NCBI RefSeq assembly: GCF_025642155.1
Contig: NZ_CP106798.1
Span: forward strand, 3,038,001-3,102,000
DNA length: 64,000 bases
Reading direction: 5' to 3'
Source of the DNA: Streptomyces sp. HUAS 15-9
Lineage (GTDB): Bacteria; Actinomycetota; Actinomycetes; Streptomycetales; Streptomycetaceae
Shown here: in pieces, positions 856-63,295 of the stretch
How the letters are laid out: every line of letters starts with the position of its first letter
Numbering within the stretch: the first letter of the stretch is position 1
Made by a program: the position numbers and the translations under genes
Notes under the pieces: generated by a model
The model's input: only the letters and a program-made list of their open reading frames with translations
The model's database searches: none
Told to the model about the DNA's origin: nothing

Positions 856-3101
856 GTGAGCGTCCTCCGGCTTCCTCCGCGGCGACGGCGCCTGCGGGTG
901 TTGCTGTTGCCGGTCTCCGGCGAGGCGGTGGTCGCGGCGGGCAGCGACGCGTCCGGTGAGGGCGATCCCGACGGGGTGGCCTGGATGTCCTTGGCCGGGT
1001 CCTTGGACATCTTCGGGGACTTGATCGTGCCGTCGGTGCGGACCTTCGGGAGGTTCTTCTCCGGCGTGGGCAGCAGGGCCTTCTTGTTGTCGACGGAGCC
1101 GTCCGGCTGGACGCCGTACATCGCGCTGTAGATGTTGCGCACGGCCTCACCGGAGGCGCCGGAACCCGTACCGGCCTGGGCAATGGTCATGATGACCGTG
1201 TAGTCCTTGGAGTAGGTGGCCAGCCAGGACGTGGTCTGCTTGCCGTAGACCTCGGCGGTACCGGTCTTGGCGTGCAGGGCGATCTTGTCCTGCGGCCAGC
1301 CGCCGAACTTCCAGGCGGCGGTACCGCGGGTGATGACGCCCGCGAAGGCGTCGTTCATGCCCTTGAGGGTGGCCTTGCCGACCGGCAGCCTGCCGGATTT
1401 CCTGGGCTTGATCTCCTGGACAGACCTGCCGTCGGCGCTGATGACCGCCTTGCCGATGGTCGGGTGGTACATGGTGCCGCCGTTGGCCACGGCGCCGTAG
1501 ATCACGGCCTCCTGGATCGGCGTGACGAGGGTGTCGCCCTGGCCGATGGAGTAGTTGATCTCGTCACCCTCGCGCATCTTGTTGCCTTCGAGGCAGTTCT
1601 CGTACGCGATCTTCTCGACGTACGAGCCGTCCTTCTTGCCGGACTTGCACCAGGCGTCCTTGTTGGCCTTCCAGTAGTTGAGCTTCCACTGGCGGTCCGG
1701 GACACGGCCGGTGACCTCGTTGGGCAGGTCGACGCCGGTCTCCTTGCCGAGGCCGAACTGGTGGGCGGTCTTGAAGAACCAGTCCTTGGGCTGGCCCTTC
1801 TTGGGGTTGATGCCGCCGTCCCTCTTCCACTCGCGGTCGGCGAGGCCGTAGAAGACGGTGTCGCAGGAGACCTCCAGCGCCCGGCCGAGCGAGATCGGGC
1901 CGAAGTTCTCACCCTCGAAGTTCTTGAAGACCTGGCCGCCGACAGAGTACGAACTGGTGCACGGATAGCCGCCGTCCCACACGTAACCGGCCTGGACCGC
2001 GGCGGCCGTGGAGACCACCTTGAACGTCGAACCCGGCGCCGCCTGACCCTGTATGGCCCTGTTGAGCAGCGGGTAGTCCGAGTTCTTGCCGGTGAGCTTC
2101 TTGTAGTCCTTGGCGGAGATGCCGCCGACCCAGACGTTCGGGTCGTAGTTGGGCGCGGACGCCATGGCGACGATCCGGCCGGTCTTGGCCTCCATCACGA
2201 CGACGGCGCCGGAGTCGGCCTTGTAGTTCTCCTGGGTGATCTTGTCCCACTGCTGGCGGGCCTTCTTCATCGCCACGTTCAGCTCGTACTCGGCGACCCG
2301 CTGGACGCGGGAGTCGATGCTGGTGACCAGGTTGGAGCCGGGCTCGGCGGCGTCCGCCTTGGCCTTGCCGATGACCCGGCCGAGGTTGTCGACCTCGTAG
2401 CGGGTGACGCCGGCCTTGCCGCGCAGTTCCTTGTCGTACTGGCGCTCAAGGCCGCTGCGGCCGACCATGTCGGAGCGCAGATACGGCGAGTCGGTGTCCT
2501 TGGCCTGCTGGATCTCGTCGTCGGTGACCGGGGAGAGATAGCCGAGGACCTGCGCGGTGTTGGACTTGCCGGGGGCCGGGTAGCGGCGCACGGCCTCCGG
2601 CTCGGCGGTGATGCCGGGGAAGTCCTCGGAGCGCTCGCGGATCTGCAGGGCCTGCTTGGCGGTGGCCTCGTCGGTGATCGGGATCGGCTGGTACGGCGAG
2701 CCGTTCCAGCACGGCTGCGGGGTCTTGGCGTCGCACAGCCGGACCTTCTGCATGATCTCCTCGGGATCCATACCGAGGACCCCGGCCAGCTTGGTGAGCA
2801 CCCCCTTGCCGTCGTCCTTCTGCTTGAGCAGGTCGGTACGGGACGCGGAGACCACCAGACGGGTCTCGTTGTCGGCGATCGGGACCCCGCGCGCGTCCAG
2901 GATCGAGCCGCGCACGGCGGGCTGGACGACCTGCTGGACGTGGTTGCCGGACGCTTCCTTGGCGTAGGCGGCGCCCTCCCGGATCTGCAGGTACCACAGA
3001 CGGCCGCCGAGGGTGCCGAGCAGGGAGAGGACGAGGATCTGGATCACGACGAGCCGGATCTGGACCCGTTGGGTCCGTCCGGTCTCCGGAATGTTAGTCA
3101 T
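852..3101 (-). CDS. mrdA: Penicillin-binding protein 2, elongation transpeptidase
   Basis: Class B PBP that cross-links glycan strands made by RodA. The protein is 749 aa from the ATG at 3101: one N-terminal membrane anchor (about residues 15-35), a dimerisation region, then a transpeptidase domain with the active-site tetrad STFK near residue 357, SCD near 412 and KTGTA near 610. A longer TTG start at 3122 is open, but the bases AAGGA lie just downstream of it and fit better as the ribosome site for the ATG. The C-terminal tail is Pro/Ser/Thr rich and ends in a run of arginines. It is the fourth gene of the mreB-mreC-mreD-mrdA-rodA order, about 135 bp downstream of mreD. Confidence 0.95.
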   Translation of the reverse strand: MTNIPETGRTQRVQIRLVVIQILVLSLLGTLGGRLWYLQIREGAAYAKEASGNHVQQVVQPAVRGSILDARGVPIADNETRLVVSASRTDLLKQKDDGKGVLTKLAGVLGMDPEEIMQKVRLCDAKTPQPCWNGSPYQPIPITDEATAKQALQIRERSEDFPGITAEPEAVRRYPAPGKSNTAQVLGYLSPVTDDEIQQAKDTDSPYLRSDMVGRSGLERQYDKELRGKAGVTRYEVDNLGRVIGKAKADAAEPGSNLVTSIDSRVQRVAEYELNVAMKKARQQWDKITQENYKADSGAVVVMEAKTGRIVAMASAPNYDPNVWVGGISAKDYKKLTGKNSDYPLLNRAIQGQAAPGSTFKVVSTAAAVQAGYVWDGGYPCTSSYSVGGQVFKNFEGENFGPISLGRALEVSCDTVFYGLADREWKRDGGINPKKGQPKDWFFKTAHQFGLGKETGVDLPNEVTGRVPDRQWKLNYWKANKDAWCKSGKKDGSYVEKIAYENCLEGNKMREGDEINYSIGQGDTLVTPIQEAVIYGAVANGGTMYHPTIGKAVISADGRSVQEIKPRKSGRLPVGKATLKGMNDAFAGVITRGTAAWKFGGWPQDKIALHAKTGTAEVYGKQTTSWLATYSKDYTVIMTIAQAGTGSGASGEAVRNIYSAMYGVQPDGSVDNKKALLPTPEKNLPKVRTDGTIKSPKMSKDPAKDIQATPSGSPSPDASLPAATTASPETGNSNTRRRRRRGGSRRTLT

Positions 3102-60668: not shown

Positions 60669-60702
60669 GGGGGCGTCCGGTGCTTCACCGGGCGCCCCCT
60701 TT
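60669..60702 (+). terminator. Terminator after pepN copy 2
   Basis: 14-bp stem (60669-60682 with 60686-60699, one G-T pair), 3-nt loop, followed by TTT. Confidence 0.88.
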
Positions 60703-60713
60703 GGTTCGCGTGG

Positions 60714-60934
60714 GCTGCGGGCTGCTGGCCGCAGGCCGCGTGGGCCGCAGGCCGCGAGCTGCAGGCCGCAGGCCGCGTGGGCCGCAGGCCGCGTGGGCCG
60801 CAGGCCGCAGGCCGCTGGCCGCTGGCCGCGAGCTGCAGGCCGCTGGCCGCTGGCCGCCGCAGGCCGCTGTCTGCTGGCCGCTGGCCGCTGGCCGCCGCAG
60901 GCCGCAGGCCGCAGGCCGCAGGCCGCAGGCTGCT
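60714..60934. repeat. Degenerate heptamer repeat block (GGCCGCN)
   Basis: About 220 bp containing 24 copies of GGCCGC, mostly in tandem 7-mers (GGCCGCA, GGCCGCT, GGCCGCG) with a few 2- to 7-base interruptions. A 16-base higher-order unit (GGCCGCAGGCCGCGTG) appears three times. It fills the gap between the pepN terminator and the monooxygenase stop (61073) and is non-coding on both strands as far as I can tell. Likely a variable-number repeat. Confidence 0.85.
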
Positions 60935-61072
60935 CAGTGCGGGACGTCGAGCACTCGGCCGCGTGGGGTCTCGTCAGCTGACTGGGCGACCTGTCGCACG
61001 AGTTGCTCGCGGGCGCGGCCCGCGGCGAGGCCTGAGCAAGGCGCCTGAGCCGGTAGCGGACCCGCTTCCGGG

Positions 61073-62542
61073 TCACCCCATGTGGGCGGTCAGCGCGGCT
61101 TCCACCGTCGCCGGGTCGGTGGCGTCGGCTGCCCAGGCCACGTATCCGTCGGGGCGCACCAGCAGGGCCATGCGGCGGTCGCTCGCCCAGTGCGCCACGG
61201 TCAGCCGCTCCGCGCGGTCCCGACCGCCTTGTCCGCCCTCGTACGTCGCCGGGGTGATCAGTACGAACCGCCCGCCCCGCAGGGCCTCGTAGAGGCGGCC
61301 GCCGTCGGCGAGGGCGACGTCGGGGACGCGTGTGCCGGTGAGGCGGTGGGAGCCGCGGGGGGCCGGGTAGCGGTAGCCGATGCCGGTGATCTGGCCGACC
61401 GCCTTGCGGCGGGCGGGTCCGACGGTGTCGAGGAACGCGGTGAGGGTGGCCCGCAGGGCCAGGGTCCAGGGGCGCTTGGCCATGGCAAGGCGGACGATGC
61501 CGCCGCTGCTGCGGAGCACGGACCTGCCGACGGGGTGACGCTCGGCCTGGTAGGTGTCCAGCAGCGCCGGGTCCGCGTGGTGGTTGGCGACCGCGGCCAG
61601 CTTCCAGCCCAGGTTGGCCGCGTCCTGCAGACCGGTGTTCATGCCCTGGCCGCCGGCCGGGGTGTGCACGTGCGCGGCGTCGCCGGCCAGGAAGACACGG
61701 CCGACCCGGTAGGCGGGGGCCTGGCGCTCGTCGCTGTGGAAGCGGGACATCCAGCGGGCGCCGTGCATCCCGAAGTCACGGCCGAGGGCGAGCCTGGTGA
61801 TCTCCTTGACCTCCTCGAGGTCGATGGGCTCGCTGTCGGCGACGTTACGGCGGCGGTGCCAGCCGATGACACGGTAGTAGCCGTCGCCGAAGGGGGCGAT
61901 GAAGGCGAAGGCGTCGCCGACGGCGTTCACGGTGAGCAGCGTGTCCGGCTTCTCGGCGAGCAGGACGTCGGCGAGGACGACGGAACGGATCACCGACCTG
62001 CCGGGGAAGGGCAGCCCGATCGCGTCACGCACGGCGCTGCGCATGCCGTCGGCGCCGACGACATAGGCGGCCCGCAGGCTCTGGGCCTCGCCGCCGGGAC
62101 CGCGGACCTCGACGGTGACGCCGTCCGCGTCCTGGACCAGCCCGGTCAGCTCGGTCTCGTGACGGAAGTCCACCCCCGCCTCCACCGCGCGCCGCTCCAG
62201 CGCCTTCTCCACCTCGTACTGCGGAAGGACCAGGAGGTGGTTGAAGCGGGAGGGGAGCGTGTCGAGGTCGATGGTGAGGCGGCCGAAGAGGGCGAGCCGG
62301 TCGAGGGGCTGCCCGGCGGCCTCCAGGTCGTCGGCGAGGCCGCGTGCGTCGAGCTGCTCCAGGGTGCGGGCGTGCAGGACGAAGGCCCGGGACAGGTTAC
62401 TGATCTTGTGCGGGCGCCTTTCGAGAAGCGTGACGGGGACGCCCGCGGTGGCGAGGTCGCCGGCCAGGAGGAGGCCGGTGGGGCCGGAGCCCACGACGAT
62501 GACGGGGAGCGGGTTGCGGGTGGTGCCAGTCGTGCCGTTCAT
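61073..62542 (-). CDS. FAD-dependent monooxygenase (aromatic hydroxylase type)
   Basis: A 489-aa PheA/TetX-type flavoprotein hydroxylase. The N-terminal FAD motif is VIVVGSGPTGLLLAGDL, the DG region is YVVGADGMRSAVRDAI, and the second FAD motif is FLAGDAAHVHTPAGGQGMN. A C-terminal thioredoxin-like domain typical of phenol hydroxylases is shorter here but its TPATYEG stretch is visible. Members hydroxylate aromatic compounds or inactivate antibiotics such as tetracyclines and rifamycins. The ATG at 62542 follows AGGAGG. It is divergent from TetR, and four of the seven operator units overlap its 5' leader, so it is the likely regulated target. Confidence 0.9.
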   Translation of the reverse strand: MNGTTGTTRNPLPVIVVGSGPTGLLLAGDLATAGVPVTLLERRPHKISNLSRAFVLHARTLEQLDARGLADDLEAAGQPLDRLALFGRLTIDLDTLPSRFNHLLVLPQYEVEKALERRAVEAGVDFRHETELTGLVQDADGVTVEVRGPGGEAQSLRAAYVVGADGMRSAVRDAIGLPFPGRSVIRSVVLADVLLAEKPDTLLTVNAVGDAFAFIAPFGDGYYRVIGWHRRRNVADSEPIDLEEVKEITRLALGRDFGMHGARWMSRFHSDERQAPAYRVGRVFLAGDAAHVHTPAGGQGMNTGLQDAANLGWKLAAVANHHADPALLDTYQAERHPVGRSVLRSSGGIVRLAMAKRPWTLALRATLTAFLDTVGPARRKAVGQITGIGYRYPAPRGSHRLTGTRVPDVALADGGRLYEALRGGRFVLITPATYEGGQGGRDRAERLTVAHWASDRRMALLVRPDGYVAWAADATDPATVEAALTAHMG

Positions 62543-62560
62543 GGGGGGCCTCCTGGGTTG

Positions 62561-62616
62561 CCAACACCTGTTGACCAACGGTCGCTGGCCAACGCTTGTT
62601 GGTCAACGCTTGTTGG
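62561..62616. promoter_or_regulatory. Operator block A: four tandem 14-bp inverted-repeat units
   Basis: Units at 62561-62574, 62575-62588, 62589-62602 and 62603-62616, each of the form CCAAC-N4-GTTGG with small variations (first base T once, last base A once). Contiguous with no spacer, located downstream of the monooxygenase promoter and thus in its 5' leader. Confidence 0.85.
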
Positions 62617-62618
62617 CA

Positions 62619-62647
62619 ACATTACGACTGAGGCACTGAGACGTCAA
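62619..62647 (-). promoter_or_regulatory. Promoter of the monooxygenase gene
   Basis: On the minus strand, TTGACG (62647-62642) and TAATGT (62624-62619) are separated by 17 bp, a near-consensus vegetative promoter. The -35 box shares bases with operator unit 5 and transcription would start within operator block A. Confidence 0.7.
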
Positions 62648-62685
62648 TACTTGTTGGCCTACGCACGTTGGCCTACGATCGTTGA
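62644..62685. promoter_or_regulatory. Operator block B: three tandem 14-bp inverted-repeat units
   Basis: Units at 62644-62657 (TCAATACTTGTTGG), 62658-62671 (CCTACGCACGTTGG) and 62672-62685 (CCTACGATCGTTGA). Contiguous, ending one base before the TetR ATG. The half-sites of blocks A and B are the same type. The block covers the complete TetR promoter. Confidence 0.82.
62651..62679 (+). promoter_or_regulatory. Leaderless promoter of the TetR gene
   Basis: TTGTTG (62651-62656), 17-bp spacer, TACGAT (62674-62679), then 7 nt to the ATG at 62687. The position of -10 relative to the start codon predicts a leaderless mRNA; there is no ribosome site. Both boxes lie inside operator units, so TetR would repress itself. 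Confidence 0.65.
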
Positions 62686-62686
62686 C

Positions 62687-63295
62687 ATGACTGCGAGCAA
62701 CACCGGCTCCGCCGCCTCCGGCTCCACCGGCTCCCCCAGCGGAGCGCGCCGCTCCGAGACCACCCGCAACGCGATCCTCACCGCCGCCCGCGAGCGCTTC
62801 GCCGCCGACGGCTATGAGCGGGCCACCATCCGCGCGATCGCCAAGGACGCGCACATCGACCCGTCGATGGTGATGCGGTACTTCGGCAACAAGGACGGTC
62901 TCTTCGCGGCGGCCGTCGCGCTCGATCTGCGGCTCCCGGACCTGGTGGCGGTGGGGCGCGACGAGGTCGGCCGGGCGCTCGTGGGTCACTTCCTCGCGCT
63001 GTGGGAGGAGAACGAGGAGCTCACGGCGATGCTGCGGGTCGGCGCCACCAATCAGGCGGGGGCCGAGCGTATGCAGGGCATCTTCCGCGACCAGCTGCTG
63101 CCGGTGGCCCTACAGGTGTGCCCCGACCCCGAGCAGGTCCCGGCGCGGGCCGCGCTGTGCGCCTCGCAGCTGCTCGGGCTGGCGCTCACCCGCTATGTGC
63201 TGCGCCTCCCCCCGGCCGTGGCACTGGCCCGGGAGGAGATCATGGCATGGCTCGCGCCCACGGTGCAGCGGTACCTCACGGCGCCCAGTCCCTGA
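62687..63295 (+). CDS. TetR-family transcriptional repressor
   Basis: A 202-aa regulator. After a Ser/Gly-rich tail of about 25 residues, the N-terminal HTH is typical: AILTAARERFAADGYERATI then HIDPSMVMRYFGNKDGLFAA. The C-terminal ligand domain (about residues 80-202) is all-helical, with a TetR_C type end. The ATG at 62687 sits one base after the last operator unit. It probably represses the divergent monooxygenase gene and itself, and is released by a small molecule that may be the enzyme's substrate. Confidence 0.92.
   Translation: MTASNTGSAASGSTGSPSGARRSETTRNAILTAARERFAADGYERATIRAIAKDAHIDPSMVMRYFGNKDGLFAAAVALDLRLPDLVAVGRDEVGRALVGHFLALWEENEELTAMLRVGATNQAGAERMQGIFRDQLLPVALQVCPDPEQVPARAALCASQLLGLALTRYVLRLPPAVALAREEIMAWLAPTVQRYLTAPSP

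Follow-up and report, generated by a model that had tools for sequence, protein, structure and literature searches.

A variable tandem array of 14-bp units between divergent tetR-family and monooxygenase genes of Streptomyces is very probably the operator array of the neighbouring TetR

QacR, a member of the TetR family, binds one site as two cooperative dimers. QacR resembles the locus described here in placing more than one dimer on neighbouring DNA, but forms a fixed pair and not an array. In Streptomyces coelicolor, SCO7222 represses the neighbouring monooxygenase gene SCO7223 across a gap of 146 bp, and three operators with the sequence TGGAACGNCGTTCCA give three discrete protected regions and three EMSA shifts (PMC3511530). 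The present locus shares with SCO7222/SCO7223 a TetR-family gene divergent to a monooxygenase gene and several operators, but the passages on SCO7222 report no 14-bp tandem array (PMC3511530). An assignment to the SCO7222 operator type was rejected, because the operator given in those passages, TGGAACGNCGTTCCA, does not match the consensus derived here from 81 regions, GYCAACRNNYGTTGRC. SAV576 of S. avermitilis is likewise a TetR-family protein with more than two palindromic sites, and its targets of repression are its own gene and a divergent oxidoreductase gene; in contrast to the array, the relevant passages describe three separate 15-bp sites with the consensus CCRTACRVYGTATGS (PMC3742746). 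EthR of Mycobacterium tuberculosis, for which octamer binding has been reported, is a TetR-family repressor divergent to the monooxygenase gene ethA, and the same layout, a divergent monooxygenase gene with a shared intergenic promoter region, is found at our locus; EthR/ethA is set apart by description and not by sequence, in that the passages concerned give one operator and report no variable array (PMC5403819). Tn10 TetR has the divergent layout and palindromic operators over both promoters, but its operators, as described in a passage of the SCO7222 paper, are two 15-bp sites (PMC3511530). The operators given in the source passages for CalR3 and MAB_4384 also differ from those described here. 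As far as these passages go, a described TetR operator consists either of two or three discrete sites or of a single site that takes up several dimers, whereas the present locus carries a variable array. We recognised no description of this array in searches of the open-access literature, and of the 44 papers there with one of five short forms of the motif, none of the 20 titles listed concerned a TetR-family regulator. The variable number of units, their mirror polarity and the existence of unlinked copies lift the array above the ordinary.

The array lies between two divergent genes in the window, that is, the whole 64-kb stretch of DNA analysed here. On the minus strand, an open reading frame (61073..62542) encodes a 489-residue FAD-dependent aromatic-ring hydroxylase/monooxygenase (P0001), which scores above cut-off for both PF01494 and PF21274 and has as its nearest solved chain 5kow, a putative rifampin monooxygenase. 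P0001 falls under every NCBIfam cut-off shown, and its naming as a rifampin monooxygenase was rejected at 356.2 bits for rif_monoox versus a curated cut-off of 800. On the plus strand, the tetR-family gene (62687..63295) encodes a 202-residue protein (P0002), the proposed binder and autoregulator, with an N-terminal TetR helix-turn-helix domain (PF00440, 49.3 bits, cut-off 24) and a C-terminal TetR-type ligand/dimer domain (PF17920, 98.9 bits, cut-off 26.2). The DNA-reading stretch of P0002, IDPSMVMRY, is invariant except at S60 across 28 aligned relatives. Elsewhere in the window, a GC-rich repetitive stretch (60680-61050) with RRPQAAG-like words in the reading frames lies between an aminopeptidase-like gene and the oxygenase gene.

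The first-pass annotation had described seven 14-bp units in blocks of four and three, 27 bp apart, and the sequence bears this out. Block 1 (62561-62616) lies where the monooxygenase gene is predicted to have its leader and start region and, at a 14-bp period, comprises U1 (62561-62574, CCAAC-ACCT-GTTGA), U2 (62575-62588, CCAAC-GGTC-GCTGG), U3 (62589-62602, CCAAC-GCTT-GTTGG) and U4 (62603-62616, TCAAC-GCTT-GTTGG). Block 2 (62644-62685), with the same period, comprises U5 (62644-62657, TCAAT-ACTT-GTTGG), U6 (62658-62671, CCTAC-GCAC-GTTGG) and U7 (62672-62685, CCTAC-GATC-GTTGA). The consensus proposed at first, YCWAY-N4-GTTGR, fits six of the seven units exactly and fails at U2, which ends in GCTGG. 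This pattern has 9 strand-wise matches in the window, all at the array, whereas 100 shuffles average 0.41 matches and never exceed 3. Furthermore, up to 4 units follow one another at exact 14-bp spacing, and 2000 dinucleotide shuffles give at most 2. A tandem unit pair (≤1 mismatch) occurs in the 9.6-Mb genome at the array locus only (reversed control, 0), and both genome-wide occurrences of the exact 16-bp form of the unit are in the array. The shuffles and the single genome-wide locus of the tandem pair rule out a chance origin. The number of single matches to a relaxed pattern is unremarkable (CCAAC-N4-GTTGG with ≤2 mismatches, 32 in the window versus 26.4), so that exactness and the 14-bp register are what set the array apart. 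With ≤1 mismatch, the 16-bp form is found at 6 places in the array and 14 elsewhere in the genome, compared with 10 for the reversed control. Taken with the single locus of the tandem pair, these counts make the regulator look local in this genome.

The two promoters lie between and within the blocks. Specifically, the monooxygenase promoter (62619..62647, minus strand) reads TTGACG (62647-62642), N17, TAATGT (62624-62619), and its −35 element is overlapped by U5, while the tetR promoter (62651..62679, plus strand) reads TTGTTG (62651-62656), N17, TACGAT (62674-62679), is covered by U6 and U7, and is followed after 7 nt by the ATG at 62687, so that a leaderless start is predicted. Both had been annotated as good promoters; their positions hold up, being conserved in 76/81 and 68/81 regions, respectively, but "good" was generous, as a sigma-70 consensus scan gives 0 matches. 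The positions are credible because of their conservation in relatives and not because of the consensus scan. In particular, TTGAC-N17/18-TANNNT is found between the blocks in all but 5 regions, and where its spacer is 18 and not 17 the inter-block gap is usually one base longer. A −10-like TANNNY, with RTG 6-7 nt further on, stands at the last contiguous unit in all but 13 regions, and in several of these 13 the array continues past a phase break.

To compare the locus across relatives, we searched genome contigs for the TetR, retained the top 80 among the 105 relatives found, and added the window to give 81 regions. The search for the tetR-monooxygenase pair with unit counts, as proposed with the first-pass annotation, found units upstream of tetR in 80/80 relatives, with varying copy number. 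A divergent oxygenase of at least 55% identity is present in 69/80 (about 1.5 kb off in L019 and partial in L028), an oxygenase of 34-41% identity in 7/80, and no divergent oxygenase in 4/80 (L063, L064, L069 and L074), where the presumed divergent neighbours are an ABM-domain protein, a glyoxalase-family protein, a protein of no Pfam family, and a short-chain dehydrogenase. These four loci keep the units at tetR, from which we infer that the units follow tetR rather than the oxygenase. In L019 (~1513-3001), tetR and the oxygenase gene stand ~1.5 kb apart, as though the region had been interrupted by an insertion, and units are found on both sides, at the oxygenase gene (G067:C1:475558-475667) and at tetR. 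Counting units with at least 5 of 8 half-site letters and stopping at a phase break, we find 1 to 7 units in block 1 and 1 to 6 in block 2 across the 81 regions; counts of long arrays depend on the counting rule, as L060 has 18 units by one rule and 10 by another. The 67 Streptomyces regions, including the window, have 3 to 10 units in total, most commonly 6, and the main blocks of the 14 loci outside Streptomyces (one in Kitasatospora) range from 1+1 to 3+2 units. The smallest relative, L073, has 1+1, while L063 has 4 units and L059 has 10.

The spacing of the units is nearly strict. Among pairs of near-perfect units (at least 7 of 8 half-site letters), 267 have a distance of 14 bp and 2 a distance of 13 bp, with no other distance below 23 bp. 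The consensus GYCAACRNNYGTTGRC from the 81 regions improves on YCWAY-N4-GTTGR; it comes from a profile of 474 units, lacking five of the window's, in which 97% of spacers have a purine at the first and a pyrimidine at the last position. The two blocks are mirror images of each other. The units adjacent to the core keep both half-sites, in block 1 (81/81 and 73/81) as in block 2 (80/81 and 78/81, with the window's U5 as the CAAT exception), while interior units keep the outward one: in block 1 the left CAAC in 73/86 versus the right GTTG in 38/86, and in block 2 the right GTTG in 80/84 versus the left CAAC in 7/84. Part of the block 2 polarity has another cause, since the last unit, in its CTAC form, also serves as the tetR −10, but the interior units are biased alike. 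Block 1 of the window is less decayed than the average of its relatives (left halves, 4/4 CAAC; right halves, 3/4 GTTG). An earlier suggestion that the joints between units provide a second, equal binding register is not supported by the comparison: L073 has units without any joint, the core-adjacent units are near-perfect palindromes in the CAAC-N4-GTTG register, and at the relatives' other units the joints mostly pair a conserved half-site with a decayed one. The block 1 joints of the window do resemble half-site pairs, and overlapping binding may occur there.

On this comparative evidence, the array is very probably the operator array of the neighbouring TetR. In the mechanism that we propose, TetR would repress both the leaderless tetR and the FAD monooxygenase gene that diverges from it, with a TetR dimer recognising GYCAACRNNYGTTGRC. 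U4 and U5, on either side of the shared promoter core, lie over the monooxygenase start, −10 and −35 regions, and U6 and U7 over the tetR promoter as far as its start codon. Each additional unit, set off by 14 bp, which by arithmetic is 1.33 turns, so that three units make four turns, would add dimers outward on both sides, probably aided by a bound neighbour. These outward dimers would tighten repression and steepen induction, and a ligand, perhaps aromatic, would release TetR. The mirror polarity, with both half-sites kept in core units and the outward one in interior units, suggests that binding begins beside the promoter and runs outward, contact with a neighbour already bound taking the place of an inner half-site. 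We favour such cooperative outward filling as the binding mode, at about even odds. A less likely but serious contender is that TetR fills each unit independently, extra units raising local occupancy or soaking up repressor with no spreading. Two to four units are enough at 13 of the 14 loci outside Streptomyces, and the core spacing alone could put two dimers over the promoters, both consistent with independent binding; however, independent binding needs neither the near-strict 14-bp spacing nor the outward polarity.

Arrays of the unit also occur at other genes. In two genomes with more distant TetR proteins, G311 (L163, 50% identical to the TetR of the window) and G275 (L164, 48%), three 2+2 arrays lie within ~17 kb, at tetR, before an FAD monooxygenase gene (38% identity to that of the window) and at a third place; in G275, an MFS transporter gene is divergent to tetR and ~400 bp separate the third array from the MMPL gene that follows it. 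It looks as if TetR controls a small oxidation-and-efflux regulon in some species. G017 and G163 each have a 2+2 array ahead of an oxygenase gene (~70% identity) that is not adjacent to tetR, and we count this recurrence of the 2+2 layout before unlinked oxygenase paralogues for the operator reading. Other unlinked arrays, met in passing and not by systematic survey, are often longer than the tetR-locus array: 11 plus 3, 12, 4 and 4 units in G014, 8 and 19 in G040, 8 and 11 plus 4 in G016, 7 plus 7 in G218, and 4 plus 5 in G261. Unlinked arrays are present in 4/11 TetR-bearing genomes tested at 2 mismatches (G014, G016, G017 and G040), and among the matches listed from a search with 50 of 80 loci, three-unit matches off tetR occur at one place in the genome of L007 and on three contigs in that of L021 (S. 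echinoruber). Unlinked arrays upstream of ZIP-type and PHO4-type transporter genes in G014 (L126, 2849-3056; L127, 3027-3192) make these genes possible added targets.

By GC-based gene calls, four unlinked arrays (L129, L138, L140 and L166) lie between convergent genes. That of L138 (1858-2121, in G040) has 19 units and, by eye, a higher-order repeat of three units (42 bp). Arrays in G040, G261, G016 and G014 (L129, L166, L140 and L136, respectively) lie at or beside the junction of a penicillin-acylase-like gene, a label given without a family search, and a hydrolase-like gene; the two genes are convergent in 3/4 of these cases, and in most other genomes examined the gap is short. An array is present at this junction in 3/14 TetR-bearing and 0/12 TetR-less genomes (acylase gene non-adjacent in 3/12), a difference that is not significant and in which the three positives were preselected, since the arrays of all four genomes were known before they were included. 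Within unlinked arrays, conservation is on average higher at half-site letters than in the spacer. Identical spacers are found in 8/93 adjacent pairs and 11/65 pairs three units apart, versus 2.3% for random ones, and this sharing of spacers above random points to local duplication. A bolder and rather unlikely reading is that TetR coats the 14-bp arrays, which gain or lose whole units, as a cooperative helical polymer and that in some Streptomyces the arrays have dispersed over the genome as a repressor-linked satellite serving as repressor sinks or DNA-organising sites. It takes in arrays of up to 19 units, some in convergent gaps without an evident promoter, and, if true, a family of dispersed repeats would owe its origin to the binding sites of a local transcription factor.

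It is unlikely that the core units alone are functional, with the outer units of the tetR locus representing functionless minisatellite drift. Consistent with drift, copy number changes frequently: on a TetR tree of 81 rows, in which 31/78 inner branches are poorly supported, no fewer than 41 changes are required to place the 21 copy-number labels, where the minimum possible is 20 and the shuffled mean is 56.7, and the local duplication in unlinked arrays points the same way. Against drift, outer half-sites are conserved, and neighbouring spacers at the tetR locus are identical in 14/324 cases (4.3%), no more often than random ones (5.4%), so that the extra units there are not fresh duplicates. 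The variation in copy number, read with the favoured operator array, suggests a gene switch that is tunable by gaining or losing sites.

The assignment of TetR as the binder, proposed from the window, is upheld by comparison across genomes. Among 61 genomes (60 drawn plus the window's own), the strict tandem pattern is found in 25, all within the 30 that have a TetR at least 55% identical, the next TetR relatives being at most 46% identical. Across 295 Streptomyces genomes, in which we scored the pair at ≤1 mismatch and the TetR at E ≤1e-45 among the 10 best candidates per genome, 152 have units and TetR, 7 TetR alone, 2 units alone and 134 neither (Fisher p ~2e-72, shared ancestry being ignored). 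At 2 mismatches, the tandem pair is found in 0/31 TetR-less versus 11/11 TetR-bearing genomes tested, and the reversed control gives 1 match each in TetR-bearing G002 and G016 and 3, 1 and 1 matches in TetR-less G022, G037 and G044. Concerning the nine discordant genomes, the array of units-only G269 lies less than 150 bases from the contig start, and in units-only G275 the 48%-identical TetR adjoins an array. The TetR-only genomes are 7/159 of those bearing TetR; of six inspected, G127, G214, G272 and G339 carry units or a degenerate array close to tetR, and G190 and G304 have no upstream unit of 7 of 8 or better. A different DNA-binding protein could in principle occupy the array; the co-occurrence with TetR, the invariant DNA-reading stretch across its relatives and the retention of units at tetR when the divergent gene differs make that very improbable. 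Least probable of all are RNA hairpins in the monooxygenase transcript leader, which would agree with the location of block 1 in the predicted leader and with every unit being an inverted repeat, but which we reject on pairing counts, as 287 of 1944 cells have lost the pairing between half-sites and 15 preserve it through a double change, and block 2 precedes a leaderless gene.

The favoured reading is thus an operator array of TetR that would fill cooperatively from the promoters outward, and its mirror polarity predicts where binding starts and in which direction it spreads. The unlinked arrays pose the question of how a binding site turns into a dispersed repeat. At the tetR locus itself, the relatives provide a natural series of 2 to 10 units around one conserved promoter core, and with these natural variants one could measure how leakiness, steepness and noise depend on the number of operators.
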